13,105 bases of DNA from an uncultured Lachnospiraceae bacterium (GTDB lineage Bacteria; Bacillota; Clostridia; Lachnospirales; Lachnospiraceae), in assembly GCA_900544445.1 (NCBI GenBank), contig UQVK01000102.1, forward strand, positions 1-13,105, given 5' to 3'. Numbering within the stretch: position 1 is the first letter of the stretch; every line of letters starts with the position of its first letter. Below the pieces are notes generated by a model, which was given only the letters and a program-made list of their open reading frames with translations, was not told the DNA's origin and searched no databases. This document shows positions 75 to 12,848 of this stretch, piece after piece. The position numbers and the translations under genes were made by a program.

Positions 75-1637
75 TTGAGCATCACATCCTTTTATTTTCT
101 GCTTTTCTACGCGCTTGTTCTGCTCATCTATTACATTGTGCCGAAGAAAGGCCAGTGGGGGATTCTCCTCCTGGCCAGTATCCTTTATTATCTTTTTTCG
201 GACAATGGGTTTCTGATCTTTTATCCGCTGGCTGCGGTGCTGGTCTGTTATGCGGGCATCCGGCGGATGGTCTGGGTCCGTGAGCATGCGGACGCGCTGA
301 AGGAGCGGGGAAAGAACCCGGAGCGGATGCGAAGGGCGGCGCTCATCGGCGTGATCGTCGTCAATGTGGGCGCTTTATTTTTGCTGAAATATATTAATTT
401 CGGAATCAATACGGTAAATGGAATCACCTCTCTTTTCCGGGAGGGAGAACTGTTACATGGCCTGAACTGGCTGGTGCCGCTGGGGATTTCCTATTATTCC
501 CTCACGCTGATCGGCTATGTGGTGGACGTGTATTTTGAAATCGCGGAACCGTTGAAGAATCCTGGAAGGCTTGCTCTCTACGGGATGTTTTTTCCCTGTA
601 TGCTTTCCGGGCCGATTCTCAGGTTCCGGGAGGATGGAAATCAGTTCTTTGAGCCGCATCCCTTTGACTATGTGCAGGTGACGCGGGGAATGCAGCGGAT
701 GCTGTGGGGATTTTTCAAGGTTCTGGTTATTTCCGAGCGCATGGGACTGATTGTGGATACCGTTTACGGGAATGATACACAGTACCAGGGGCTTTATATC
801 TGGATCGGAACGGTTGCCTTCGCGTTCCAGCTTTATACCAATTTCTCCGGCGGGATGGACATTTCGCTGGGAATCGCGCAGACCTTTGGCCTGAAGCTGC
901 CGGAAAACTTTGAGCGTCCGTTTTTTTCAAGGACCATTTCCGAGTACTGGCGCAGATGGCATATCACGCTGGGCGTGTGGATGAAGGAGTACGTGTTCTA
1001 TCCGATTTTACGTTCCGGCCTGTTTACGAAGCTGGGAAAGAAGCTCCGGGCCAGATTCGGAAAAAAGAGAGGAAAGCAGCTCACCACCTTTGCCGGAATG
1101 TTCCTTCTGTGGTTTGCCGTCGGCGTCTGGCACGGCGGGGACTGGAAGTATGTGATCGGCTCCGGCCTTCTGCACTGGGCCTACATTGTCTGCGGGGAGC
1201 TTCTGGAGCCCGTGTACGCAAAGGGCATGGCGAAGCTTGGTATAAACCCGAAGGCGAAATGGGTGGACGCTCTGCGCATGCTTCGCACCTTTTTCCTGGT
1301 GAATATCGGGTTTGTGTTCTTCCGCGCGGACAGCGTGGGCGCGGCCTGCTCCATGCTCCGCGGAGCGGTATCCGTTTTCAATCCGGGCATTCTCGTTGAC
1401 GGATCGATTTTTACGCTGGGGCTTGACTGGGTAGAATTCACTATCGCGGCGGTATCGCTTTTCATACTGCTCGCGGTATCCCTGCTGCAGGAAAAGGGCT
1501 CCGTGCGGGAGAGGATTGGCAGAAAGCGGCTGCCTGTGAGGTGGCTGATCTGGTACGCGCTGCTTTTTTATGTGATTCTGCTGGGAAATTACGGGCCGGA
1601 CTACAGCGCGGCGGAATTTATTTATCAGGGGTTCTAG
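75..1637 (+). CDS. DltB-like MBOAT family membrane O-acyltransferase
   Basis: A 520-residue polytopic membrane protein of the MBOAT family, which passes acyl groups from a cytosolic donor to an acceptor on the outer face of the membrane. The N-terminus (MSITSFYFLLFYALVLLIYY) and repeated hydrophobic segments to the end fit the family. Diagnostic motifs are YWRRWH at 291-296, the V-W-H-G-G motif at 351-355 with the presumed catalytic His353, and the C-terminal EFIYQGF, close to the FIY-x-Q-F ending common in this family. The start is TTG at 75: it gives the conventional N-terminus, AAAGGA lies at 59-64, and no ATG is available before residue 65. The gene follows a carrier-protein-like end and precedes a glycosyltransferase, which suggests D-alanylation or another acylation of a teichoic-acid-like polymer. 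AlgI/PatA-type O-acetylation is the alternative. The family is certain; the substrate is inferred. Confidence 0.9.
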   Translation: MSITSFYFLLFYALVLLIYYIVPKKGQWGILLLASILYYLFSDNGFLIFYPLAAVLVCYAGIRRMVWVREHADALKERGKNPERMRRAALIGVIVVNVGALFLLKYINFGINTVNGITSLFREGELLHGLNWLVPLGISYYSLTLIGYVVDVYFEIAEPLKNPGRLALYGMFFPCMLSGPILRFREDGNQFFEPHPFDYVQVTRGMQRMLWGFFKVLVISERMGLIVDTVYGNDTQYQGLYIWIGTVAFAFQLYTNFSGGMDISLGIAQTFGLKLPENFERPFFSRTISEYWRRWHITLGVWMKEYVFYPILRSGLFTKLGKKLRARFGKKRGKQLTTFAGMFLLWFAVGVWHGGDWKYVIGSGLLHWAYIVCGELLEPVYAKGMAKLGINPKAKWVDALRMLRTFFLVNIGFVFFRADSVGAACSMLRGAVSVFNPGILVDGSIFTLGLDWVEFTIAAVSLFILLAVSLLQEKGSVRERIGRKRLPVRWLIWYALLFYVILLGNYGPDYSAAEFIYQGF

Positions 1638-1639
1638 TT

Positions 1640-1687
1640 CACGTACTGGACGGAAGCCGTGTCCGCACGGCCCGGGGCGTCTACGTG
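1640..1687 (+). other. Three-segment RNA stem-loop in the MBOAT-glycosyltransferase gap
   Basis: Starting three bases after the MBOAT stop codon, CACGTA (1640-1645) pairs with TACGTG (1682-1687), GACG (1649-1652) with CGTC (1678-1681), and GCCGTG (1656-1661) with CACGGC (1666-1671). All 16 pairs are Watson-Crick. The apical loop is TCCG, a UNCG-type tetraloop. No T-run follows, so it is not a standard intrinsic terminator. It stops just before the purine-rich ribosome binding region of the glycosyltransferase. Possible roles are an mRNA-stabilising or processing element, or a modulator of translation of the next gene. The pairing is seen directly; the role is inference. Confidence 0.55.
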
Positions 1688-1711
1688 AGGAAATAAAAGG
1701 GAGAAAAGAAG

Positions 1712-2650
1712 ATGGACAAAATTGCGGTGCTGATACCCTGCTACAATGAGGAGAAGACCATTGAAAAGGTGGTAACGGACGCGAAGAAGGCGCTTCCGGA
1801 AGCGGTTATTTATGTGTATGACAACAATTCCACCGACCGGTCGGTAGAACTTGCCACAAAAGCCGGAGCGGTGGTGCGCAGGGAGAGAAAGCAGGGAAAG
1901 GGAAACGTGATCCGGCGAATGTTCCGTGAGATCGACGCGCAGTGTTATATCATGGTGGACGCGGACGATACCTATCCGCTGGAGTGCGCCGGGCAGATGG
2001 CGGACAAGGTTCTTCTGGAAAATTCCGACATGGTGGTGGGAGACCGGCTGTCATCCACCTATTATGAGGAAAATAAGCGTCCCTTCCACAACATGGGAAA
2101 CAGCCTGGTGAAAAAGAGCATCAATCTGCTGTTCCATTCCGAGATTCAGGACATCATGACCGGATACCGGGCCTTCAGCTATCAGTTCGTAAAGAGCTTT
2201 CCCGTGCTGTCCAAGGGCTTTGAGATCGAGACGGAGATGACCATCCACGCGGTGTACAACAACATGCAGGTGGACAATGTGGTGGTGGATTACAGGGACC
2301 GGCCGGAGGGAAGCGAATCCAAGCTGAATACCTATTCGGACGGAATCCGGGTGCTGGGAACCATCATGCGGATGTTCCGCCAGTACAAGCCGCTTGCGTT
2401 TTTCGCGGGGCTGGCGGTTGTGCTTACGGTGATTTCAGCGGTATTTTTCGTACCGGTGCTGATCGCCTTTCTGGAGACCGGAATGGTGGACAAGTTCCCG
2501 ACTCTGATCGTCTGCGGCTTTGTGGAGCTGGCGGCGATCCAGTCCGTCTTTTCCGGCCTGATTTTGCATAATCTGGGCGTGAAGGAGCGGCGGGATTTTG
2601 AAATGAGGCTGTATGAGATCCGGAACGGAAAAGAAGAGCGGGATAAATAA
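1712..2650 (+). CDS. Family 2 glycosyltransferase, DPM1/GtrB-like, with C-terminal membrane anchor
   Basis: A 312-residue GT-A fold glycosyltransferase. Visible signatures are the N-terminal V-L-I-P-C-Y-N-E-E nucleotide-binding strand (6-14), Y-D-N-N-S-T-D (36-42), the metal-binding D-A-D-D (83-86), D-I-M-T-G-Y-R-A-F (147-155) and G-F-E-I-E-T-E-M (169-176). These are typical of dolichyl/undecaprenyl-phosphate sugar synthases. Two hydrophobic segments near 228-250 and 262-286 would anchor it, as in GtrB. The expected reaction is transfer of a sugar from a nucleotide donor to undecaprenyl phosphate on the cytosolic side, for later use outside the cell, for example in glycosylating teichoic acid or another wall polymer. 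No flippase or GT-C partner is in the window. Start ATG 1712 has AGGGAG at 1698-1703. It lies 74 bases after the MBOAT gene and is probably co-transcribed with it. The sugar is not predictable. Confidence 0.88.
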   Translation: MDKIAVLIPCYNEEKTIEKVVTDAKKALPEAVIYVYDNNSTDRSVELATKAGAVVRRERKQGKGNVIRRMFREIDAQCYIMVDADDTYPLECAGQMADKVLLENSDMVVGDRLSSTYYEENKRPFHNMGNSLVKKSINLLFHSEIQDIMTGYRAFSYQFVKSFPVLSKGFEIETEMTIHAVYNNMQVDNVVVDYRDRPEGSESKLNTYSDGIRVLGTIMRMFRQYKPLAFFAGLAVVLTVISAVFFVPVLIAFLETGMVDKFPTLIVCGFVELAAIQSVFSGLILHNLGVKERRDFEMRLYEIRNGKEERDK

Positions 2651-2702
2651 AGAAAAAAGTGGAAAAAATAAGAGCAATCAGATTAAGATTTTATGAAGTC
2701 CA

Positions 2703-2731
2703 TTGCATGTCCCGGCGCTTTGGAATATACT
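2703..2731 (+). promoter_or_regulatory. Sigma-A-type promoter for the SGNH lipoprotein gene
   Basis: TTGCAT (2703-2708) and TATACT (2726-2731) are separated by exactly 17 bases. Transcription would begin near 2738, leaving a leader of about 45 bases before the ATG at 2783, which has a perfect AGGAGG at 2771-2776. No terminator is visible after the preceding glycosyltransferase gene, so the lipoprotein may be transcribed both from here and by read-through. Confidence 0.65.
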
Positions 2732-2782
2732 GGACTCGATAAAGGGAAGATTTTCTGATTCACCCTAAACAGGAGGAAGAAT

Positions 2783-3859
2783 ATGAAATGGCAGAATAGG
2801 AAAACAGGACTTTTACTGGCATTGCTTCTCGCAGTGTCCATGATTCTTTCAGCCTGCTCGGAGACAGATATTACGGAATCTCAGTCTTCCGTGAGCGGCG
2901 GATCAACGGAGAACCAGAGCGCGGACGCGGGCACGATTGCGGAGCTTCAGGAACAGATCGCGGAGCTTCAGGCGGAAAATGAGGCTTTAAGAAATCAGCT
3001 GCATCAGTACACGGAAGGTCAGGCATCCTCGGAAACGGCACAGGAGAATACGGAACAGACTCCGGAAGGGGAGCAGGAGACACAGACAGAGGAAGTCCCT
3101 GTAGAGGATGAACTGAATATCGTTGTTCTGGGAGACAGTATCTGGGACATGGACAGAGGGGATACGGGAATCGCGGCGCAGGTGGCTGCTTATATGAACG
3201 CGAATGTTTACAACTGTGCCATCGGCGGAACGCGGGCTTCCCTGAAGGAGGGTGAGTCCGATGTGAATTACGATACCTGGGATTCCACCTCTCTGACAGG
3301 GATGTGTTATGTGCTGTGTGATCTGGTCAGCCCGGAATTCCTGGAAGGATATCCGGCAGGCGGCGTGATCCGTAATGTGGACCCGAGCACGGTGGATTTC
3401 TATATTGTGGCTTATGGACTGAACGATTATTTCGCAGGAGCGCCGATTGCCGTGAAGGATGGAGATACCTATGACGCGCACGGTTATGCCGGAGCACTTC
3501 GAAATGCAATTGCCCTTTTGAGGAATGCCAGCCCCAATGCCCAGATTCTTCTCATTTCTCCCACCTACTGTCAGTTCTATGAAGACGGATATATGGTGAC
3601 GGACAGCAATATGAAGGATTATGGAAACGGAACTCTGACCGATTACGCGAACGCCTGCAGAAATGTATCGGAGACGGAAAATACGCTGTATATCGATGCG
3701 TATACCACGATGGGAATCAATATCTATACGGCGGAAGAGTATCTGGAAGACGGCGTGCATCTGACAGAGGCCGGAAGAGCGCTGTATGCGAAGGCGGTGG
3801 CCAGCTGTCTGAAGTACGGAAAGCCGGGCGAGGTATCCGGAAATTCCATTTATTATTGA
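2783..3859 (+). CDS. Surface lipoprotein with coiled-coil stalk and GDSL/SGNH hydrolase domain
   Basis: A 358-residue exported lipoprotein. Basic residues are followed by a hydrophobic stretch and the lipobox L-S-A-C with lipidated Cys25. Residues about 50-75 (A-E-L-Q-E-Q-I-A-E-L-Q-A-E-N-E-A-L) form heptads typical of a coiled coil, and 76-110 is a Glu/Gln/Thr-rich linker. The catalytic domain starts near 111 and carries all SGNH blocks: G-D-S-I at 117-120 (nucleophile Ser119), A-I-G-G (146-149, block II Gly), G-L-N-D at 212-215 (Asn214) and D-G-V-H at 323-326 (Asp323, His326). It should be an active serine esterase or acyltransferase on the outer face of the membrane. Next to a DltB-like MBOAT and a glycosyltransferase it may edit acyl groups on a wall polymer, a job DltD does in dlt systems, but it is not a recognisable DltD. 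A free-standing esterase is equally possible. The ATG is fixed by AGGAGG six bases upstream. Confidence 0.9.
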   Translation: MKWQNRKTGLLLALLLAVSMILSACSETDITESQSSVSGGSTENQSADAGTIAELQEQIAELQAENEALRNQLHQYTEGQASSETAQENTEQTPEGEQETQTEEVPVEDELNIVVLGDSIWDMDRGDTGIAAQVAAYMNANVYNCAIGGTRASLKEGESDVNYDTWDSTSLTGMCYVLCDLVSPEFLEGYPAGGVIRNVDPSTVDFYIVAYGLNDYFAGAPIAVKDGDTYDAHGYAGALRNAIALLRNASPNAQILLISPTYCQFYEDGYMVTDSNMKDYGNGTLTDYANACRNVSETENTLYIDAYTTMGINIYTAEEYLEDGVHLTEAGRALYAKAVASCLKYGKPGEVSGNSIYY

Positions 3860-3871
3860 TGATAAGGATGA

Positions 3872-3926
3872 CAGAAAAGGGCCCGCCCGGAAAGAATTTG
3901 CTCTTTCCGGACGGGCTCCCTTTCTG
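3872..3926. terminator. Long bidirectional terminator hairpin between convergent genes
   Basis: CAGAAA (3872-3877) pairs with TTTCTG (3921-3926), and the inner arm 3879-3894 pairs with 3903-3919 with only single-base mismatches or bulges, leaving a short AT-rich loop. The stem is more than 20 pairs with a GC-rich core. Read on the + strand it ends in CCCTTTCTG, and on the - strand in CCCTTTTCTG, so each side has a short T-rich tail. It sits between the stop of the + strand lipoprotein gene (3859) and the end of the - strand SGNH gene (3954), where both transcripts would end. Confidence 0.8.
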
Positions 3927-3953: not shown

Positions 3954-5105
3954 TCAATGCGTCTCCAGATAAGCCTTCAGCTCCGCCACCTCTTCCGTCA
4001 GCAGCCCGGTAAAGTAAACCGCCCCGTCCGGATTCAAATGATCCGCGTCTCCAAAGTATTTCAGATTGGTCTGAAACCTTTCGTCATGGGAATAATCATA
4101 ATAGCTCACCCCATATTCCAGCGCAATCTCGTTGATCACGGAATAGAACTCATACAGGAAATCCGCGGATACATACTGGTTGTAGTAAACCGTAAACGGC
4201 GTTGTAATCAGAACCGGCGTGATGTTGTTCTCTTTGCAGAGCGTGATCAGATCAATCAGATTCTGTTTCTTATCTTCTTCAAAATACTCGTCCTTATTTT
4301 CAAAATGCCGCTGATATCTCGCAAGCCCTCTCGCTTCAAATTCCGCAACCGTTTCAGCGCCGTAGATTTCTTCCGGCGTACCGGATTCTGCCGCGTCTGA
4401 TGCGGCGGCGCCGTCTCCTGCCGCATCCAAACTGCCTTCCGGGGGATTTTCCGCAGAGGAGCCGGAAACGCCGGCTGCCGTGTCCGGCACAGTCGCCGTC
4501 CCGGCTTCTGCCGCGGCCTCTGCCGCCGCATCTGCCATCCCCGCTTCCGCCGCATAGGTGATGTTTTTCTTGTTTTCAGACAGGGAAGGAAAAATGACAG
4601 GCGGCTTGAACAGCTCAAAAATCTCTTCCCCGGCGGAAAGAACCGGGAAACGTACTGTGACCAGATCCTTATACAGGCTGTAATCCGGATTGTACTGGGG
4701 GGACAGAATCCGGTAATAGCGGACGCTGATGGCTTCCTGATCTGCCGGGTCCGTGGCCTCCTCATTGAAGGAGAAGTAGGAGACCGGGATGAAGAGAATG
4801 CTGCCATCCGCAAAATCATCCTTATGCATGTTGATCAGGGAGTAATCATACAGGAAGGACTGGCTGGTGAGGGCAAAATTGAAGGTCTCATAGCCGCGTT
4901 CAGCCGCCAGAGCGTCCCAGCTGAAGGCACACTGACCGTGAGAACTGCCCACGTTGGCAAGCTGAATATTGTGCGGAACAAAATTGAATACATTGACTTC
5001 CGACATGCCGGTGCTTACCTTCTGTTCGTACATCATATCCAGATAGAACAGACAGCAGAAAGTGATGCATACGGCAAGAACACTTTTTACGATAAATTTT
5101 TTCAT
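3954..5105 (-). CDS. Membrane-anchored SGNH-like acyltransferase partner of the MBOAT protein
   Basis: 383 residues with an uncleaved signal anchor at about 4-22, so the rest lies outside the membrane. The SGNH signatures are A-N-V-G-S-S-H-G (50-57), with the nucleophile being Ser54 or Ser55 as in the G-S-S motif of DltD, and D-A-D-H-L-N (353-358), giving Asp353 and His356 of the D-x-x-H block. Strand I-T-P-V-L-I-T-T-P-F (295-304) fits the hydrolase core. Proteins of this kind (DltD, AlgX/AlgJ, PatB) take the acyl group exported by an MBOAT and place it on a polymer, and here the MBOAT gene lies 17 bases upstream. Residues about 185-245 are an Ala/Gly/Ser/Glu-rich low-complexity insertion that is unusual inside such a domain. 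No good ribosome binding site precedes the ATG (AAAAACGCCC), so translation is probably coupled to the MBOAT gene; the signal anchor still makes this start convincing. The acceptor polymer is unknown. Confidence 0.8.
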   Translation of the reverse strand: MKKFIVKSVLAVCITFCCLFYLDMMYEQKVSTGMSEVNVFNFVPHNIQLANVGSSHGQCAFSWDALAAERGYETFNFALTSQSFLYDYSLINMHKDDFADGSILFIPVSYFSFNEEATDPADQEAISVRYYRILSPQYNPDYSLYKDLVTVRFPVLSAGEEIFELFKPPVIFPSLSENKKNITYAAEAGMADAAAEAAAEAGTATVPDTAAGVSGSSAENPPEGSLDAAGDGAAASDAAESGTPEEIYGAETVAEFEARGLARYQRHFENKDEYFEEDKKQNLIDLITLCKENNITPVLITTPFTVYYNQYVSADFLYEFYSVINEIALEYGVSYYDYSHDERFQTNLKYFGDADHLNPDGAVYFTGLLTEEVAELKAYLETH

Positions 5106-5122
5106 GGGCGTTTTTCAGTCTG

Positions 5123-6625
5123 TCAGAATTGCATGTAAATGAATTCTGTGGTTACTCCTTTCTCGGAAAAAAGCAGGATAACGAGTAAAAGCAGGATATA
5201 TACCGGCCAGCGGATGAAAAAGCGCTGTCTGGAAATCAGGGCGATCACATCGGTCTTCAGGGAGACCAGATCAAACAGAAACAGCGGAATCAGGGGCAGG
5301 CAGTGGAACATCAGATTGGTGAAGGTGATCCCCATCTGAACCGCACAGTCGTGGATATAGGTGTAGGGAGAGCCGATGCCCGTGAACATGTTCCGGATCA
5401 CGTAGAGCGCATCCTGAAAGGTTGCAGCCCGGAAAAAGATCCAGGCGAAACAGACCAGAAGGAAGGTCACCGGAACGGTAACGATACTCAGCAGGGCGTG
5501 CAGCTTCCGGTCAGTCTGGAACCGGGAGCCTTTTTTGTTCCATGGGAAAAAGCCCTCTATGACCTGAAGCGCGCCGTGGATGCCTCCCCAGAGCACGTAA
5601 TTCCAGCTTGCACCGTGCCACAGGCCGCTGACCAGGAAGGTGATCATGATATTAAGAGCATGACGGATACGGCCCACCCGGTTGCCTCCCAGCGGGATAT
5701 AGATGTAGTCTCTCAGCCAGCTGGAGAGGGACATGTGCCATCTTCCCCAGAAATCCTTGATGGAGGACGCAAAATAGGGGGAACGGAAGTTGGGAGACAG
5801 GCGTATCCCCAGGATGCCGGCGGAGCCGAGGGCGATGTCCGTATACCCTGAAAAGTCGCAGTAAAGCTGAATCGCGTAAAAAAATGTGGCCAGCATGAGA
5901 GAAAACCCGGTATAGGAGGAAAGATTCCCGTAGACCTGGCTGACGTAGATGGAAAGCCCGTCAGCCAGCACCAGCTTTTTGAAAAAGCCCCAGGCCATCA
6001 GCTTCAGGCTGTAGGACGCCTCTTTGTAGTGAAAACGCCGTGGCTTATGAAGTTGGGGAAGCAGGGAAGCGCCGCGTTCAATGGGGCCCTGCATGACCTT
6101 GGGGAAAAAGGAGATATATACCGCATAGATTCCGAAATGGCGTTCCGCGGGGATTTTCCCCTTATACACGTCAGCCAGATAGCTGATCGTCTGAAACAGG
6201 TAAAAGGAAATTCCGATGGGAAGCGCGAGCTTCAGGGTAAAGGGCTGCATGGGAATGGAAAACCGCTGTAGCAGCGCGGCCACATTTTCGGAAAAGAAAT
6301 TCAGGTATTTAAAGAAAAACAGAAGGCCCGCGCAGAACAGAACGGACAGGACGAGGACGATTTTAGCCGAGGAAGCCGCCTTCCGGCCCTTTCTGCTGTC
6401 CGGAGCCTTGTCACGATGTTTTCCTGCGCGTTCCATTTGCAGAGCCGCGTAATAGGAAATCAGGGTGGTGAGAAGGAGAACGAGAATGTATTCCGGTCCC
6501 CAGGAAGCATAGAAAAAATAGCTGGAAGCAAGTAGCGGCACCCAGCGCCATTTTCTGGGAACGGCCCAGTACAAAAGGAACACAACGGGCAGAAAAACGG
6601 CGTAGCCGAACGAATTAAACAGCAT
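5123..6625 (-). CDS. AlgI/PatA-like MBOAT family O-acyltransferase
   Basis: A 500-residue polytopic MBOAT protein. The N-terminus (MLFNSFGYAVFLPVVFLLYW) is the classical start of AlgI/PatA-type proteins. Motifs include F-F-P-K-V-M-Q-G-P-I (173-182), Y-C-D-F-S-G-Y-T-D-I-A-L-G (255-267), D-F-W-G-R-W-H-M-S-L (291-300) and L-W-H-G-A-S-W (335-341) with the presumed catalytic His337. It ends in TEFIYMQF. It should move acetyl or another small acyl group across the membrane for O-acylation of an extracellular polysaccharide or wall polymer, with the SGNH protein directly downstream as transferase. The frame is open 12 codons further (to 6661), but ATG 6625 is chosen because it gives the family N-terminus, has AGAAAGGGA just upstream, and lies at a sensible distance from the promoter at 6678-6707. 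This is the second MBOAT in the window; it is closer to AlgI than the one at 75-1637. Confidence 0.92.
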   Translation of the reverse strand: MLFNSFGYAVFLPVVFLLYWAVPRKWRWVPLLASSYFFYASWGPEYILVLLLTTLISYYAALQMERAGKHRDKAPDSRKGRKAASSAKIVLVLSVLFCAGLLFFFKYLNFFSENVAALLQRFSIPMQPFTLKLALPIGISFYLFQTISYLADVYKGKIPAERHFGIYAVYISFFPKVMQGPIERGASLLPQLHKPRRFHYKEASYSLKLMAWGFFKKLVLADGLSIYVSQVYGNLSSYTGFSLMLATFFYAIQLYCDFSGYTDIALGSAGILGIRLSPNFRSPYFASSIKDFWGRWHMSLSSWLRDYIYIPLGGNRVGRIRHALNIMITFLVSGLWHGASWNYVLWGGIHGALQVIEGFFPWNKKGSRFQTDRKLHALLSIVTVPVTFLLVCFAWIFFRAATFQDALYVIRNMFTGIGSPYTYIHDCAVQMGITFTNLMFHCLPLIPLFLFDLVSLKTDVIALISRQRFFIRWPVYILLLLVILLFSEKGVTTEFIYMQF

Positions 6626-6630
6626 AAAAA

Positions 6631-6639
6631 TCCCTTTCT
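6631..6639 (-). promoter_or_regulatory. Ribosome binding site that sets the MBOAT start
   Basis: On the - strand this reads AGAAAGGGA, followed by five T residues and the ATG at 6625. The upstream in-frame ATG at 6661 has no comparable site and would lie only about ten bases from the predicted transcription start. Confidence 0.65.
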
Positions 6640-6677
6640 GACCCGGCGGCGGGCCTGGCATTTATCTGACGAAAATT

Positions 6678-6707
6678 ATTATACTACAGGACTGGAAAAA
6701 TATACAA
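6678..6707 (-). promoter_or_regulatory. Sigma-A-type promoter for the MBOAT-SGNH pair
   Basis: On the - strand TTGTAT (6702-6707) is followed after 18 bases by a consensus TATAAT (6678-6683). Transcription would start near 6671, about 45 bases before the MBOAT ATG. The -35 box lies only nine bases beyond the stop codon of the CotH-family gene, and no terminator separates them, so the pair has its own promoter while probably also being read through from the VTC operon. Confidence 0.7.
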
Positions 6708-6715
6708 GACCAGAC

Positions 6716-8398
6716 TCAGCCCGCCCATTCCCCGTACAGGAATTCCTTCCTTGCCGCCAGGAAGGAACGGACCTGTTCCACCTGGTCCATATAGGCCTGA
6801 CGCGCCGCTTCGGTAAGGGCGGCCGGGGAAAGGGATGTCTCCTGGCTGTCATTGTTCACACGGCCCCAGCGCAGATAGTCCATGACCGCACTGGCGGAAA
6901 GCTCCTGCGCCCATTGGGTCAGGCCGGTTTCCACAAGCTCATTCAGCCAGGGATACAGGACGCTTTCATACAGACTGACCACATCCTGATAGAAAGCGTT
7001 GTTATAATACAGAAGCTGCCACCAGATCAGGCTCCCGGGAATATCCCGGGCGGAAAAGCCGGTGGGATCCATGTAGTCGATTTCTTCCTGGATGCGTTCC
7101 ACCCCGTAGGCCCAGTCATAATCCCAGACGGGGCCGGCATGAAGCAGGCCGTCCTGATCCTTGTAAAAATACTGGCTGGTGGAGGAGCAGTCGATGTTTT
7201 TGCTCACCTCTTCCACCAGATATTTGCCCACAAAGCTGGGGATGTCAATGTATGCGGAAAGGACCTGATAGTCGTCAAGTCCCACGCTTTCACGCATGAC
7301 GTTTTCACATTCCTGCACATAGGAGGAGATGTACTGATACTGCGCTTCGGAAAGGTATGCAGGGGATTTGGCGACCATGTAGGCGCCGCTTTCCAGAATG
7401 AAGCCGCTGGCCTCACCCGAATAACGCATGGCGTTGTCCGCCTCCAGAATATAGCCTCCGGTGATGTTTTCCGGATTGTTTTCATAATCCCACCATTTAC
7501 CGGTGATGGACTGGTTCCAGTCGTCAAGGGTCAGTCCGGTGGTGAGCTGGTTCAGGCTTTCTTCACTTCGCAGAGGATTGGCCTGTTCGGTCAGCTCTTC
7601 CAGGTCCGTGAGGTTCATGTTTTCCGGGGTGATCCGCTGGTACAGCTCATATACGCCCTCAAAACTGTTGTTGATGTACAGATTGACCCGGATGCAGGCC
7701 ATGCTGCCGGTTCCTGCAAGTTCTCCCATTTCATTGGAAATACGGTTCCTGAGAAAGGTGAGATCGCTGGAAGAGACCAGGGAATAATCCGTCGTCTGCC
7801 CGGTCATGCCGGAAAGAGTGACGGAATCCTGCAACGTGATGTTATACGGTTTTTTCTCCTGTTCCCAGCTTGTGTTTCCACGCCCTTTGATTTTCTCCAG
7901 ACCTCCGCCATAGACGGTTTCCCCGTCGCCGCTTAAGATGAGCGCCTGGCCGGAGTCAGACTGTTCTTGGTCCGAGCTGATGTGGGAGAGGTCATGTTTC
8001 AGCGTAAGATAGACGGAAGGGATCTGAGAACCGGTCAGAATGGTGAGCGTCTGCCCGCCTTCGAGCCGGAAGCTCTGTCCGGAGGAAAGGATGGGAAGAG
8101 AAAAAGATTTGCTGCCTTCCCCGGAAACCGTCTGCAGTCCTGAGCCCTCCGTCTGGATGAGACGGCCTTCAGCCCAGGAGGGAAGAAAAAGATAATATTC
8201 CCCCGTATCAGAGCACCAGGCGTCTATGGAAATGGAGGTTTCTCCGCTGGTGAGCTGGGCTGTGATGACGGGAACCTCCCCGTCGCCGGAGCGTATGCTG
8301 ATATATACGGTATGCGACTGCTTCAGGGCGCTGAAACAAAACAGGAGAAAGATACCGAGAAGCAGAAACAGCCCCATGACTTTCTTGTTTTTATCCAT
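6716..8398 (-). CDS. Exported CotH-family protein kinase
   Basis: 560 residues. A hydrophobic segment at 8-24 is a signal anchor or signal peptide, so the catalytic part is outside the membrane; Cys21 lacks a proper lipobox. Residues 30-150 are a Ser/Gly/Thr-rich, beta-like region. The CotH kinase domain follows with its hallmarks: K-G-R-G-N-T-S-W (171-178) and K-K-P-Y (182-185), F-L-R-N-R-I-S-N-E-M (215-224), Y-I-N-N-S-F-E-G-V-Y-E-L (241-252), the S-Q-Y-F-Y-K-D segment (408-414) and the metal-site-like G-P-V-W-D-Y-D-W-A-Y-G (422-432). B. subtilis CotH phosphorylates spore-coat proteins, but this anchored form in a VTC-DUF4956 operon is a different branch, and no CotB/CotG-like substrate is visible. 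It is last in the trio, 12 bases after DUF4956, with AAAGGA upstream. The family is clear. Its target, and the source of phosphate outside the membrane, are unknown. Confidence 0.9.
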   Translation of the reverse strand: MDKNKKVMGLFLLLGIFLLFCFSALKQSHTVYISIRSGDGEVPVITAQLTSGETSISIDAWCSDTGEYYLFLPSWAEGRLIQTEGSGLQTVSGEGSKSFSLPILSSGQSFRLEGGQTLTILTGSQIPSVYLTLKHDLSHISSDQEQSDSGQALILSGDGETVYGGGLEKIKGRGNTSWEQEKKPYNITLQDSVTLSGMTGQTTDYSLVSSSDLTFLRNRISNEMGELAGTGSMACIRVNLYINNSFEGVYELYQRITPENMNLTDLEELTEQANPLRSEESLNQLTTGLTLDDWNQSITGKWWDYENNPENITGGYILEADNAMRYSGEASGFILESGAYMVAKSPAYLSEAQYQYISSYVQECENVMRESVGLDDYQVLSAYIDIPSFVGKYLVEEVSKNIDCSSTSQYFYKDQDGLLHAGPVWDYDWAYGVERIQEEIDYMDPTGFSARDIPGSLIWWQLLYYNNAFYQDVVSLYESVLYPWLNELVETGLTQWAQELSASAVMDYLRWGRVNNDSQETSLSPAALTEAARQAYMDQVEQVRSFLAARKEFLYGEWAG

Positions 8399-8410
8399 TT
8401 TCCTGTTCCT

Positions 8411-9085
8411 TTAATAAACCGCCTCTCCGTCACGGGCGATGACAGAAGCACTGAGTACGTGGGAGAGTGCGGAAACCGCGTCGAGAAGCTCCCCCTCCTG
8501 CCGGGTCCGGCATTCGATGATGAAATCCGTGCCGTCCATGGTACGGTTGCGGGATTTGACCTTATAGCTTTGCGTCAGCTTCTGCACGGATGGCAGAAGC
8601 TCGTCCTCTTTGCCTTCCCCGTCCATGTTGACAACCAGAAGGACGCTTGCGCGGCCTTCCGGGACCAGTTCGAGAAGGAAGAGAAGGATGGTTACAACGA
8701 TGGAAATGAGCAGGGCGAGCTCATAGTTGCGCGCGCCGAGAATGATTCCGATGCCGATGGACCAGAAAAGGAAAAGCATATCCTTCGGTTCCTTGACGGC
8801 GGTACGGAAGCGGACGATGGACAGCGCGCCCACCATACCGAGGGAAATGACCAGATTCGACTGCATCGCCAGGATGATGCCTGCCGTTATGATGGGCAGA
8901 ACGCCGAGCACGATGTTGAACTGCTTGTTGTAAAAGCTCTTTTTCTGCGACAGATAGTAGACCGCGTAGATGTAAATGCAGAACAGGATTGCGATGCCAA
9001 GCGTGATGCAGATGGAAGCTGTGGACAGCGTGTTGTTTTCCATCGTTTCCAGAATGGAGTTTTTGATGATATCTTGGAAGCTCAT
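8411..9085 (-). CDS. DUF4956 multi-pass membrane protein
   Basis: 224 residues. Hydrophobic segments lie near 22-45, 57-75, 77-91, 103-118 and 121-140, followed by a soluble tail of about 80 residues. The strongly conserved family segment is seen at 81-102: S-L-G-M-V-G-A-L-S-I-V-R-F-R-T-A-V-K-E-P, then K-D, where Arg and Lys sit between membrane segments. The C-terminal tail has alternating strands and helices and may be an ACT- or MgtC-like regulatory domain (inference). The biochemical role of DUF4956 is not known to me; it recurs beside VTC-domain and CotH genes, as here. A membrane subunit that works with the VTC enzyme, such as a channel or scaffold, is plausible. The frame has an earlier ATG (9112), but the ATG at 9085 has AAGAAAGGTG eight bases upstream and gives the usual start, so it is chosen. 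Confidence 0.88.
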   Translation of the reverse strand: MSFQDIIKNSILETMENNTLSTASICITLGIAILFCIYIYAVYYLSQKKSFYNKQFNIVLGVLPIITAGIILAMQSNLVISLGMVGALSIVRFRTAVKEPKDMLFLFWSIGIGIILGARNYELALLISIVVTILLFLLELVPEGRASVLLVVNMDGEGKEDELLPSVQKLTQSYKVKSRNRTMDGTDFIIECRTRQEGELLDAVSALSHVLSASVIARDGEAVY

Positions 9086-9093
9086 TTGAAAAA

Positions 9094-9103
9094 CACCTTT
9101 CTT
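9094..9103 (-). promoter_or_regulatory. Ribosome binding site that decides the DUF4956 start
   Basis: The - strand reads AAGAAAGGTG here, eight bases before the ATG at 9085. It lies inside the nine extra codons that would be added by the ATG at 9112, which itself is preceded by CTCATCAACGA with no Shine-Dalgarno match. Confidence 0.65.
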
Positions 9104-9130
9104 TTTATTCATTCGTTGATGAGACGTTTA

Positions 9131-9868
9131 TCAGCCCTTGAAAGCGGAGAGAGGGCCCTCCTTCCGTACAGCTCCGCTCAGCGCATGGCTTCTGCAGAGC
9201 ACATATTTGGAAAAGGTGATCCGTTCCAGCTTTCCTGTGTCCAGCGCGCTTCGGATGAAGCCTGGAAGGAATTCGTCATATTTTACCTCCATGATATGCC
9301 ATCCGGCGGCCATGACGGGCCTTTTGGGCAGCGCGCGGTCCGGAAAGCGGAGCACATATCCGGAGGAAGCCAGGTTCCGGTCAAAGGTGACGCGGACGTT
9401 TCCTTTCTTACAGGTATAGGCGGTCCGTTCATACTCCACGATGGTCTTCGGCAGAAGCCGGTGCAGGAGCATTTCCGTCTGCAAAAGTGTGAGCAGCGGC
9501 CGGTCCCCGCCTGACAGGCGTACCGGTCTTCCGCGGAGCAGGCAGAGGCATTCCGCTTCGGTGAGCGGACAGCTCTTTTTTCGTGTGAGGTCGTGGGATT
9601 TGATTTTCTGTTCCAGATGGATGGCATCCATGCTTTCATTATAAATCCGGATCCGGAATTTGCTGCGCGGAGAGACACCGCTCAGATTCTGGCGCAGGGC
9701 CAGGTCCTGCCAGTCGTCAAAATAGACGCTTCGGATGCGGTAAGCGCCCTCCGGATGAAAGGCGTCCGGTTCCATCAATGGACGGATTCTGGCAGTAATG
9801 AGGGCAATGTCCCTTTCGTCCACCAGAAACTTCTGTTCATGACGATATTTTCCTCTGAAACGCTCCAT
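9131..9868 (-). CDS. VTC-domain (polyphosphate polymerase family) triphosphate-tunnel protein
   Basis: 245 residues, soluble, made only of the VTC/triphosphate tunnel metalloenzyme (TTM) domain. Expected tunnel residues are present: Y-R-H-E-Q-K-F (8-14, Lys13), R-I-R-S-V-Y-F-D (44-51), K-F-R-I-R-I-Y (70-76), L-E-Q-K-I-K (85-90), V-E-Y-E-R-T-A-Y (144-151), V-R-V-T-F-D-R-N-L (158-166), M-E-V-K-Y-D-E-F-L-P (193-202) and S-K-Y (220-222). In yeast Vtc4 the same fold makes polyphosphate from ATP while the membrane part of the complex passes it into the vacuole. The bacterial protein lacks SPX and membrane domains; the following DUF4956 gene may supply the latter. It is the first gene of the operon, ATG 9868, with AAAGGA six bases upstream. 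All charged tunnel strands look intact, so catalysis is likely, but polyphosphate as product is inferred from the family; another triphosphate substrate is possible. Confidence 0.9.
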   Translation of the reverse strand: MERFRGKYRHEQKFLVDERDIALITARIRPLMEPDAFHPEGAYRIRSVYFDDWQDLALRQNLSGVSPRSKFRIRIYNESMDAIHLEQKIKSHDLTRKKSCPLTEAECLCLLRGRPVRLSGGDRPLLTLLQTEMLLHRLLPKTIVEYERTAYTCKKGNVRVTFDRNLASSGYVLRFPDRALPKRPVMAAGWHIMEVKYDEFLPGFIRSALDTGKLERITFSKYVLCRSHALSGAVRKEGPLSAFKG

Positions 9869-10118: not shown

Positions 10119-10147
10119 ATTATGGCAGAGTCGGCAGTAAAAGTCAA
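10119..10147 (-). promoter_or_regulatory. Sigma-A-type promoter of the VTC-DUF4956-CotH operon
   Basis: On the - strand TTGACT (10142-10147) and CATAAT (10119-10124) are 17 bases apart, each one mismatch from consensus. Transcription would start near 10112. The motif ATAATATT occurs both over the -10 region (10116-10123) and just upstream of and partly over the -35 box (10146-10153), a possible operator or chance in AT-rich DNA. Confidence 0.7.
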
Positions 10148-10208: not shown

Positions 10209-12848
10209 CTATTCCATACGCAGCCTTTCAACGATGCTGTGCTTTTCCAGATTCCGGAAGCAGATGCAGGGAATCAGCACCGCAAACAGCAGGAGGATGG
10301 GCGTGCAGATAAGGAGGGGCAGCAGGGTGAAGCGGAAGGTGGTGAAGCCTCCTGCCACCATGGCGCGCACGCCGATTCCGACGGCAAGGGAGCCGAGCAG
10401 GTAGGAGGCCGCCAGGGTGATGACGGCATAGCAGAGGCCCTCATTTACCAGCATCCGGCGAAGCTGCTTTTTCGTCATGCCGATGGACTGGATGACAGCG
10501 AATTCCCGTCTGCGGGAAACGATGGCCGTGACCATGGAGTTGACGAAGTTGAGGATGCCGACCAGGGCGATGACGATGCTGATGGCGCTGCCCGTAACGG
10601 CGGAGGAGCGGGTTTCCGCCTCGTACTGGCTGGCCATGCTCTGCCGGGAGACCACGGGCAGGCCGGGGTTCACCGTTTCCGTGTAGGAATCCAGAAATGC
10701 CTGTGCTTCCTCCAGATGCGCGTCGTCCACGTTGAGAAACAGCTTTCTTAAGGTGTGGTCCGGCCACTGGGCCCGGAACACGTCGGCGGGCAGGATGAAC
10801 TGCATTTCAAACCGGCCTGCGGCGTTCTGCTGGGAAGCGCCGGCGGTTACCGGATTCAGGGGATAGACGACGGCCATCACCGTGTAGCTTTGTCCGTTCA
10901 GGGTTACCTCCGTTCCAGGCGTGGGAGCGGGAATTGTGTCCGGAATCGTTCCCGGCTCCACACTGGGGCCGACGGCAAGAACATAGCTGCCTGTGGAAAA
11001 TTCCTGTGCGTCGTAGGAACCGGCCATGATACAGCCATCCTGGGTGATGGTATTCAGCGGAATGCCATCCAGTCCCAGGAGGATGGCAGAAGCCATTCCA
11101 CTGTCCAGAGCATCACGAAGCTGGTCTGCGCCTGCAGAATCGTAGGTTTCCCAGTCGGCGAGCCGGTCTTCGGTGTAGAAGGCGGCCAGATTCTGAATGG
11201 TATCCTTCGTCATCTCCCAGTCCACCTGCGCGGAGTAGAGATGACCGGTTTCCTCCAGCCCGTCCAGGGATTCCGCCCGGCTGACCAGATCGGAGGAAAG
11301 GGTGGCACCATGCGGATCGTAGCCGTTGAAATAATCCTCGCTGGTGGCTTCGGACAGCTCGAAGTCCGCCAGGGTCAGATCAGCCAGATATTTTTCCATA
11401 TCAAAGGCTGCGTTCTGCGCGTAGAAGCAGCTTAAAAGCACCAGACCGAGGGTCAAAGAGCAGACCACGGTGACGGTGCGCTTTTTGTTCCGGCCCAGAT
11501 TGGCGAGTGCCATGGAGAACAGGGACGCGTTTCCGGGACGGTGTCTGCGCGCTTTTTGAGAGCGGGGCGAAAGGGCTTTCCGGGAGCGGGCAGAAGACGT
11601 TTTCCGGGAGCTGCCGGAAGGCACGGTACCGTCCGCATCGTTCATGCGAAGCGCTTCCACCGGGGAGATCCTGGCGGCAATCCGGGCGGGACGCAGGCAG
11701 GAGATCAGCACGGTGAGCCAGGAGAACAGGGCGGAACCGATGAAAATGACCGGACTTGCGGAAACGGAGGACTGCTCCGCCGTCCCCATGAGCACGGGAA
11801 CCAACACCATGCCCAGAAGCCAGCCCAAAAGCAGGCCTGCGGGAATGCCCGCCAGGCAGAGGCGGTCCGCCTGTTCGTATAGGAGTTTTCGGATCTGGCG
11901 CGTGGAAGCGCCCAGGGTTTTCAGCCTGCCGTAGAACTGAATGTCTGCGGTGACGCTGATCTGAAAAATATTATAGATGATCAGGTATCCCGCGACGAAC
12001 ACCAGCGCCATGCCCAGATACATGGGAAGGCTTTCCTGAAAGGCGGCGGCGTTCATTTCCGGGCTGTAGGCGAGATTCACGCTGTATTCCAGCCCGGTCA
12101 GCCCGGTGTCCGCGAGGATGCCGTCCATGACGCCCTCGATGTTCTGATCCGTATAGAGGCTGATCTGGAGCATGCGGAGCCCCAGATAGGGATTCTCCGG
12201 ATCATTTCCGGTGTTGTCTCCGGCATCCCCTGTCATGGCGTCGGCATATTCCCGGCTCACCCATGCCAAATGGGAGTAGGAGGACTCATTTCCTTCCCAG
12301 AAGCCGACGAGAGTGAAAGTGGAATAGATTTTTTCATCGGAAGTGGGAGTTTTGCGCCACTCCAGTGTGACCGCCTGCCCCAGCTTGTGGGGAATTCCCA
12401 GACGGTCCAGGGTGACGATGTCCAGCGCAACTTCATCCGCCGCCTGGGGCATCCGGCCCGTGGTGGGAGCGGAAAAGGAGTGGGCGGCATAGCTGTCGTC
12501 CGCCCAGCGGATCTCCACCGACATTCCGGCGAGGGCGGTATTTTCCGCGAGACCGAGAACGATGCTTTCTCCGGTTCCCGCCACATCCGGATGGGCGGCG
12601 ATCTGCGCCGCCTGCTCTTCGGTGATGCCGCGGATGGAAGCCTGGGTGTCGCTTCCGGTCTGGCGGAAGGTCATTTCGATCATATTCCGGTTCAGGCTTT
12701 GGGCCAGGGTGAACAGGGTGGTGAACATCAGCGTGGTCAGAATGATGGCGAGAATGGCGGCCAGATTCCGCCCTCTGTTATTCCGAAAGGTGCGGCTCCC
12801 CAGCACCCGGATCGGATGAAACTCTTTGTTTTCAGAAACGGTTTTCAT
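10209..12848 (-). CDS. FtsX/MacB-family ABC transporter permease with two FtsX modules
   Basis: 879 residues. The first module has a membrane segment at about 28-50, an extracytoplasmic domain of roughly 225 residues, then three segments within about 277-385 with the coupling sequence Y-G-R-L-K-T-L-G-A-S-T-R-Q-I (306-319) typical of FtsX. A basic Ser/Arg/Lys-rich linker (about 403-440) leads to the second module, with a segment at about 456-477, a second outside domain of about 270 residues, and three segments in the last 130 residues preceded by I-Q-S-I-G-M-T-K-K-Q-L-R-R. This two-module layout is common in Firmicute exporters that act on lipoproteins, peptides or envelope stress rather than transporting through a pore. 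It pairs with the ATPase gene 13 bases upstream. Start ATG 12848 has AAGGAG a few bases before it. The substrate cannot be predicted, and no two-component system is visible in the window. Confidence 0.92.
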   Translation of the reverse strand: MKTVSENKEFHPIRVLGSRTFRNNRGRNLAAILAIILTTLMFTTLFTLAQSLNRNMIEMTFRQTGSDTQASIRGITEEQAAQIAAHPDVAGTGESIVLGLAENTALAGMSVEIRWADDSYAAHSFSAPTTGRMPQAADEVALDIVTLDRLGIPHKLGQAVTLEWRKTPTSDEKIYSTFTLVGFWEGNESSYSHLAWVSREYADAMTGDAGDNTGNDPENPYLGLRMLQISLYTDQNIEGVMDGILADTGLTGLEYSVNLAYSPEMNAAAFQESLPMYLGMALVFVAGYLIIYNIFQISVTADIQFYGRLKTLGASTRQIRKLLYEQADRLCLAGIPAGLLLGWLLGMVLVPVLMGTAEQSSVSASPVIFIGSALFSWLTVLISCLRPARIAARISPVEALRMNDADGTVPSGSSRKTSSARSRKALSPRSQKARRHRPGNASLFSMALANLGRNKKRTVTVVCSLTLGLVLLSCFYAQNAAFDMEKYLADLTLADFELSEATSEDYFNGYDPHGATLSSDLVSRAESLDGLEETGHLYSAQVDWEMTKDTIQNLAAFYTEDRLADWETYDSAGADQLRDALDSGMASAILLGLDGIPLNTITQDGCIMAGSYDAQEFSTGSYVLAVGPSVEPGTIPDTIPAPTPGTEVTLNGQSYTVMAVVYPLNPVTAGASQQNAAGRFEMQFILPADVFRAQWPDHTLRKLFLNVDDAHLEEAQAFLDSYTETVNPGLPVVSRQSMASQYEAETRSSAVTGSAISIVIALVGILNFVNSMVTAIVSRRREFAVIQSIGMTKKQLRRMLVNEGLCYAVITLAASYLLGSLAVGIGVRAMVAGGFTTFRFTLLPLLICTPILLLFAVLIPCICFRNLEKHSIVERLRME

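Follow-up and report, generated by a model that had tools for sequence, protein, structure and literature searches.

In the 13,105-nucleotide contig UQVK01000102.1 of an uncultured Lachnospiraceae bacterium (the window, here meaning the whole stretch), a gene for a VTC-family protein is followed on the same strand by a gene for a membrane protein of family DUF4956 and a gene for a CotH-family kinase. VTC and DUF4956 are a near-obligate pair in the genomes of two phyla, and we propose, giving this an even chance of being right, that the two proteins would form a two-subunit membrane phosphate-polymer synthase and exporter serving surface-polymer operons. Gene content, the near-obligate pairing, intact residues of the VTC tunnel, a kinship between DUF4956 and MgtC, a hydrophobic N-terminus on CotH and surface-polymer genes nearby were all computed here. 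An earlier note, made from the letters of the window, had named the three genes, had read VTC as a cytosolic tunnel enzyme with its membrane part on a separate gene, and had described DUF4956 as a five-segment membrane protein and CotH as exported. Our results agree with each of these descriptions: the three genes are real, match the Pfam families given to them and lie on one strand with gaps of 45 and 12 bp; VTC has no membrane segment by hydropathy, appears soluble and keeps its tunnel residues; DUF4956 has its own reading frame, and its predicted model contains five helices of membrane-spanning length; and the CotH of the operon looks exported, with a strong hydrophobic segment at its N-terminus (KD17 2.68 at residues 7-23).

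The pairing was established in three sets of genomes. The best 80 of 577 confirmed relatives of the window VTC, a set biased towards the window, define the 80 genome loci to which we refer below, and every one of the 80 has DUF4956 adjacent to VTC in the same orientation. Because these loci had been picked by similarity, two broader genome samples were searched: 149 genomes of the phylum of Eisenbergiella tayi (the first phylum), and 118 genomes of another phylum, reached via a locus titled Bacteroidales (the second phylum). VTC is found in 20 of the 149 first-phylum genomes, and the same 20 carry DUF4956, with 27 matches to each family; in the second phylum it is found in 23 of 118, and DUF4956 is present in all 23. 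Over both phyla (267 genomes), DUF4956 occurs in 43/43 genomes with VTC and in 13/224 without it, and Fisher tests, made on genomes of unstated completeness and not corrected for relatedness, gave 3e-25 for the first phylum and 1e-15 for the second. The centre genomes of both samples (G001 and G154) had themselves been chosen through VTC loci; when they are omitted, both families are found together in 19/148 and 22/117 genomes, respectively.

The two genes are also close on the chromosome. Of the 54 VTC matches in both phyla, 52 have a DUF4956 no more than 3 kb away. In the first phylum, 26 of the 27 have it on the same strand at a distance of up to 2 kb, the exception being genome G067, where both genes are near contig ends; in the second phylum, 26 of the 27 have it at up to 3 kb, and the exception is a 54-residue fragment. 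This two-phylum survey rules out chance adjacency. Furthermore, among 14 control genomes both families occur in the same three, those of Bacteroides ihuae, Corynebacterium glutamicum and Methanosarcina acetivorans; the C. glutamicum genome has a CotH match as well. The genome of a close relative (G155, the source of locus L001) holds four DUF4956 matches on four contigs, so that a single cell may contain more than one such module.

Two other relationships of the pair were considered and found unsupported. The identification of DUF4956 with the DUF202 membrane domain of eukaryotic VTC was judged by co-occurrence, and no genomes were shared: in the second phylum DUF202 is found in 0/23 VTC genomes vs 23/95 VTC-less ones (23/118 overall), and Pfam finds no DUF202 in the window proteins. 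A role of VTC as a replacement for the polyphosphate kinase PPK1 is unsupported in the first phylum, where the two co-occur more than expected.

The 245-amino-acid VTC protein scores 143.3 bits against PF09359 (cut-off 23) over residues 9-225, and Pfam finds in it the VTC domain only, with no SPX domain. Against the PDB, a profile of 27 VTC sequences gave yeast Vtc4 (3g3q) at E 2.3e-10 and Vtc2 at E 1.3e-4; at the level of profiles, the family resembles Vtc2 less than it does Vtc4, which is the polymerase subunit in yeast. R72 and R74 align with Vtc4 R264 and R266, which together with E426 are the residues mutated to inactivate the enzyme in PMC9911596. Lys or Arg of Vtc4 is aligned to each of K13, R72, R74, K88, R148 and R159. 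Across the 137 VTC frames from the loci gathered (133 distinct and 4 duplicates), K13, K70, R72, R74, E86, K88, R148, R159, D163, E194, K196, S220 and K221 are invariant in 137/137. Judged by these residues the tunnel is intact, and the protein is a predicted polyphosphate polymerase. K200, K281, R361, R373 and K458 are further tunnel or metal residues of Vtc4; E194 and K221 are presumably paired with Vtc4 residues as well, both lying past the end of the Vtc4 alignment. Viral contigs searched with the window VTC gave no relative.

DUF4956 was modelled twice. A first model, from 26 sequences (predicted local distance difference test, pLDDT, 66), gave only ACT-like or ferredoxin-like fold matches, whereas a deeper alignment gave a model with pLDDT 80.3, in which the C-terminal domain has an ACT-like match in the fold search. 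Since the ACT-like fold is common, the appearance of an MgtC domain among the fold matches is not specific. The third helix is followed by a conserved RFRxAxK motif, with R92 kept in 145/146 and R94 in 146/146 distinct DUF4956 frames. The sequence alignment A4 was built with the fragment in L030 omitted from 63 locus sequences, and P0190 looks chimeric at its N-terminus.

Profile comparison gave a more specific relationship. In hhalign, DUF4956 and MgtC align collinearly over 193 columns with a probability of 95.1 and E 3e-8, this being a pairwise E-value that is not database-calibrated. The membrane part alone gave a probability of 65.1 (score 38.0) and the ACT-like part alone 48.0 (30.5). 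As controls, 35 other gene groups of the loci, none larger than 40 members and one (L001_1) probably consisting of antisense frames, scored at most 23.9 against DUF4956 (probability at most 2.4) and at most 30.3 against MgtC (at most 10.6), and a reversed DUF4956 profile scored 23.9 (2.7). With a threshold of E 1e-5, a profile search started from DUF4956 alone took in a single MgtC protein at first and 20/20 MgtC proteins in the next round. The Pfam MgtC/SapB model (PF02308) at E 0.001 did not report the window DUF4956 protein; run against ten DUF4956 genes in 61 genomes it matched three, with 28.5, 22.3 and 20.5 bits (cut-off 31.4). DUF4956 is, by these profile comparisons, a remote relative of MgtC: the membrane domain and the C-terminal ACT-like domain align collinearly in the two families, but the likeness is remote enough that the best DUF4956 match stays below the Pfam cut-off. 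Two divergent second-phylum DUF4956 frames, L167 and L161, score below MgtC proteins against the DUF4956 profile once it includes one MgtC, and on these scores the families are not sharply separated.

The window CotH scores 96.2 bits against PF08757 (cut-off 23.8) and is 99% identical to a protein named for Candidatus Eisenbergiella intestinigallinarum. An N-terminal hydrophobic segment is present in 72 of the 73 CotH frames of at least 400 amino acids in the 80 loci, an upper bound, as frames were read from stop to stop. A profile of 37 members matches CotH of Bacillus cereus (5jd9) at E 1.2e-24, and D403 (kept in 35/37 aligned sequences) and D426 (36/37) are, through this alignment, the putative counterparts of D228 and D251 of Bacillus subtilis CotH. 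Trp245 of B. cereus CotH is one of the two residues sandwiching the adenine, the other being Tyr142 (PMC12189002, in extract). As we read the alignment, W425 corresponds to Trp245, and this position is Trp in 32/37 and aromatic in 36/37 members; the position of Tyr142 reads Leu in the window CotH, in a loop that aligns poorly. The retained adenine-stacking Trp favours a nucleotide donor. A loss of the adenine site, considered as possible support for a donor other than ATP, was not found for Trp245.

In its distribution CotH follows VTC less strictly than DUF4956 does. It is present in 41/43 VTC genomes vs 27/224 VTC-less ones: 18 of 20 vs 3 of 129 in the first phylum, and 23 of 23 in the second, where 24 further genomes have CotH without VTC. 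In one VTC genome (G071) the sole CotH match is a signal-less, spore-sized protein of 368 amino acids. CotH lies within 2 kb of 18 of the 27 first-phylum VTC matches, with none listed near the other 9; in the second phylum it is within 10 kb of at least 6 of 27, and for 21 of 27 there is none among the matches listed. Of the 80 loci, 58 have a CotH at most 2.5 kb away, 56 of these on the same strand, and 8 of the 22 without it have too little flank to judge. The CotHs of first-phylum genomes without VTC number three, two of them signal-less and of 365-369 amino acids, the third (G077) lipoprotein-looking; furthermore, 16 CotHs were sampled in the second phylum, from 13 genomes lacking both VTC and DUF4956, and 16/16 have signal-like starts. 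An exported kinase is consequently not always in need of VTC. The earlier note had expected the three families to stay adjacent and to co-vary among genomes. For VTC and DUF4956 adjacency was borne out, but CotH is not obligatory beside them; co-variation was seen for DUF4956 and largely for CotH, with the signal-less protein of G071 and the exported-looking CotHs of VTC-less genomes as departures. CotH is frequent beside VTC but exchangeable.

The proteins found in its place, and the wider neighbourhoods, point to the cell surface. Gene groups were named from single representatives, and 24 of the 80 Lachnospiraceae loci contain at least two of the three groups represented by a GT2 glycosyltransferase, a priming sugar transferase and a LytR-CpsA-Psr protein. 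Of the nine first-phylum VTC matches that lack a close CotH, five have a Cthe_2159 protein next to the pair (in one case within a 218-amino-acid protein) and three a lamin-tail protein; L093 has neither among the four neighbours scanned. Eight Cthe_2159 or lamin-tail neighbours were checked, one of them beside a Paenibacillus pair (L082), and they have signal- or lipoprotein-like starts. Cthe_2159 carbohydrate-binding proteins stand directly beside VTC-DUF4956, with no CotH, in L082, L092, L096, L097, L102 and L104. Among loci with CotH, VTC, DUF4956 and CotH are consecutive in a record of the actinomycete Nonomuraea; a two-component pair separates VTC-DUF4956 from CotH on an Enterococcus faecalis plasmid; and on a Planococcus maritimus plasmid (L083) the cluster holds VTC-DUF4956-CotH, a 689-amino-acid protein, a HEAT protein and GT2. 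Genes for an OmpR-type response regulator and a histidine kinase adjoin the pair in L086, L092, L093, L096 and L098, and these two-component neighbours suggest envelope-stress or phosphate control.

DUF4956 is also found in another setting. No VTC was detectable beside DUF4956 in 13/13 VTC-less DUF4956 loci, and in 10 of the 13 (L168-L177) the gene next to it codes for an HlyD-like adaptor, followed by a protein of about 410 amino acids; in L175 and L176 the HlyD-like matches are only below Pfam cut-offs. A Hymenobacter DUF4956 adjoins a TolC-family gene. Such neighbours fit an inner-membrane export role for DUF4956, and the ten-locus unit of the second phylum, DUF4956 with the HlyD-like and the roughly 410-amino-acid protein, is a candidate exporter on this gene content. 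The roughly 410-amino-acid protein belongs to no clear family; a TolC-like identity was considered, but its profile did not match that of the one TolC-family protein compared (probability 0.6).

In the mechanism that we favour, the VTC tunnel domain would polymerise phosphate from a nucleoside triphosphate on the cytosolic side, and DUF4956, with its ACT-like domain in the cytosol, would hold VTC at the membrane and regulate it, and would probably pass the phosphate polymer outward past the conserved Arg motif. The product would serve the cell envelope, where exported partners, usually CotH and otherwise Cthe_2159 or lamin-tail proteins, would use or organise it, and the polysaccharide synthesis and acylation enzymes of the loci would build or decorate a surface polymer. 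The polymerase activity, the physical complex, the direction of transport and the product are the parts of this scheme that we infer. Several observations weigh against it. DUF4956 occurs without detectable VTC in 13 of the 118 second-phylum genomes, so that its function is not tied to VTC alone. PPK1 is found in 9/20 first-phylum VTC genomes vs 14/129 others; being commoner where VTC is present, it suggests that VTC may be dispensable for polyphosphate as such and may make another product. The membrane part of the DUF4956 model found no solved relative in the fold searches, and the ACT-like part alone scores about level with the highest of the control groups aligned to MgtC. Finally, we know of no accepted transport function for MgtC proteins, so that DUF4956 could be purely regulatory.

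In a different reading, the pair is a sensor or regulator: VTC would bind or hydrolyse a triphosphate, and DUF4956 would act in an MgtC-like manner on membrane energetics, ions or polysaccharide synthases. The MgtC kinship, an ACT-like domain whose fold is common among ligand-sensing domains, and the OmpR-type two-component genes beside several pairs are consistent with it, but the invariance of all mapped Vtc4 tunnel residues in the 137 frames goes beyond the needs of a binding-only role, and DUF4956 is also paired with HlyD-like adaptor genes; we regard this reading as improbable. The exchangeable third gene raises another one, that the polymer, or its complex with divalent cations, is a structural or ion-binding part of a surface matrix which CotH, Cthe_2159 and lamin-tail proteins bind or arrange with no phosphotransfer from the polymer. 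The substitution of CotH by the two other families in eight of the nine CotH-less first-phylum matches, the signal- or lipoprotein-like starts of those checked, and neighbours that are variously glycosyltransferases, a LytR-CpsA-Psr protein, the O-acyltransferase pair or the Pel genes of the published loci all argue for such a matrix. A scaffold, in contrast, would not need the conserved active-site Asp residues of CotH, and we consider this reading unlikely.

The earlier note had proposed that exported polyphosphate, or a related phosphate donor, made by VTC and DUF4956 could supply an extracytoplasmic CotH; in the reading weighed here, the kinase would phosphorylate surface proteins or polysaccharide. 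The excess of CotH in VTC genomes (one of them with the signal-less type only) speaks for such a link. In the second phylum every VTC genome has CotH, though few of the VTC matches have one listed nearby, which makes the association more than operon hitch-hiking. Nearly all longer CotH frames of the loci begin with a hydrophobic segment, while two of the three CotHs in VTC-less first-phylum genomes resemble spore CotH and have no signal; moreover, PMC7821199 treats the origin of the ATP used by spore CotH as an unanswered question. Against it stand the retained adenine-sandwich Trp, the VTC matches in both phyla with no CotH listed nearby, and the signal-like CotHs of VTC-less genomes. The claim was therefore not borne out in the form in which it had been put, and we rate polyphosphate as the donor for CotH as rather unlikely, if conceivable. 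Taken as a whole, the scheme in which the VTC-DUF4956 synthase-exporter energises phosphorylation outside the cell, with the CotHs of the operon using exported polymer instead of ATP on surface polysaccharide or proteins, appears to us quite doubtful.

The three families have been seen together before. In extracts of PMC7112168, streptococci, clostridia and bifidobacteria have cotH, a polyphosphate polymerase gene (PPP) and DUF4956 in one contiguous block with Pel genes, in the arrangement cotH-PPP-DUF4956(-DUF4832) by pelDEADAFG, so that the trio is already in print; those loci resemble the window in having the same three families, contiguous and near surface polysaccharide genes. They differ in that the Pfam matches of the window hold no Pel genes, and MBOAT and DltD-like genes follow the trio instead. 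The proposal made there is only that CotH might regulate Pel by phosphorylation. In the literature searched, as far as the extracts go, we found neither the link between MgtC and DUF4956 nor the obligate pairing of VTC with DUF4956. Yeast Vtc1/Vtc3/Vtc4 (PMC9911596, in extract) shares with the window a tunnel domain that is homologous and conserved at R264, R266 and the remaining mapped residues, an enzyme coupled to a membrane component, and conserved basic residues on the membrane part; the window membrane partner, unlike that of yeast, is a separate gene product with five helices and an ACT-like domain, MgtC-like and not DUF202, and SPX is absent. NELoc-2 of Clostridium perfringens (PMC2879425, in extract) and the Planococcus cluster share the downstream order CotH, a protein of about 690 amino acids, a HEAT repeat protein and GT2, but in NELoc-2 the two membrane proteins after the VTC genes are annotated as tubulin/FtsZ GTPase; by size and position alone, these may be misnamed DUF4956 proteins. 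Spore coat CotH (B. subtilis; B. cereus 5jd9) shares the active-site Asp and the adenine-stacking Trp position with the operon CotH, which differs in its N-terminal hydrophobic segment and its place in surface-polymer loci; three spore-sized CotHs in our genomes have no signal.

The positions of the genes and signals are collected in the table. VTC, DUF4956, CotH, MBOAT and DltD-like genes follow one another on one strand as far as a terminator-like hairpin, directly past the last two and with the most pairs of any such hairpin in the scan, and all five are found in unchanged order in the relative L002 (VTC identity 77%). On these grounds we read 3954-9868 as a single, probable five-gene operon. 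The DUF4956 start is probably at 9085 and not at 9112, because most close homologues listed are 224 amino acids long and AGAAAGG stands 5' of the ATG at 9085; the longer start would reduce the gap from VTC to 18 bp. MBOAT has an in-frame ATG at 6625 with a better ribosome site. The promoter-like match is about 250 bp upstream of VTC.

Features of the operon in the window, with their positions and supporting matches
Feature	Position	Strand	Remarks
VTC (PF09359)	9131..9868	(-)	245 amino acids, Pfam E 1.1e-41; predicted cytosolic triphosphate-tunnel polyphosphate polymerase
DUF4956 (PF16316)	8411..9112; with likely start 9085, 8411..9085	(-)	224 amino acids from the likely start; Pfam E 1.2e-14
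CotH-family kinase (PF08757)	6716..8398	(-)	560 amino acids, Pfam E 3.6e-27; N-terminal hydrophobic export or anchor segment
MBOAT membrane O-acyltransferase	5123..6661	(-)	PF03062 E 3.4e-26
DltD-like partner of O-acyltransferase, probably exported	3954..5105	(-)	PF04914 E 3.6e-6
Intrinsic-terminator-like hairpin, operon end	3881..3916	(-)	16 pairs; consensus match only (19 found, 13.0 expected)
Highest-scoring promoter-like match of the window	10119..10147	(-)	10/12, extended -10; consensus match only (10 found, 7.8 expected)

On the (+) strand, 75-3859 carries a second MBOAT, a GT2 gene (AglJ model, below cut-off) and an SGNH/GDSL lipoprotein-like gene; this convergent cluster ends at the same terminator region as the operon, and two acyltransferase systems are thereby set head to head. 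Upstream of VTC, at a distance of about 340 bp, is the gene of a large FtsX-like ABC permease (10209-12848, (-)). An Rfam scan of the window gave no family at gathering scores.

Two questions are still open: how polyphosphate leaves the bacterial cell, and where extracytoplasmic kinases obtain their phosphate. A concrete system in which to test them is offered by this two-gene unit, in which a yeast-type polymerase has a membrane partner unlike that of yeast. The unit occurs in both phyla and in the Nonomuraea record, and the C. glutamicum and M. acetivorans controls hold its two families at the genome level. DUF4956 gains a remote family, MgtC, and with it comes a suggested biochemical context for that superfamily, a phosphate polymer at the membrane. 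The locus makes it testable whether bacteria make and export a phosphate polymer for the modification of their surface.

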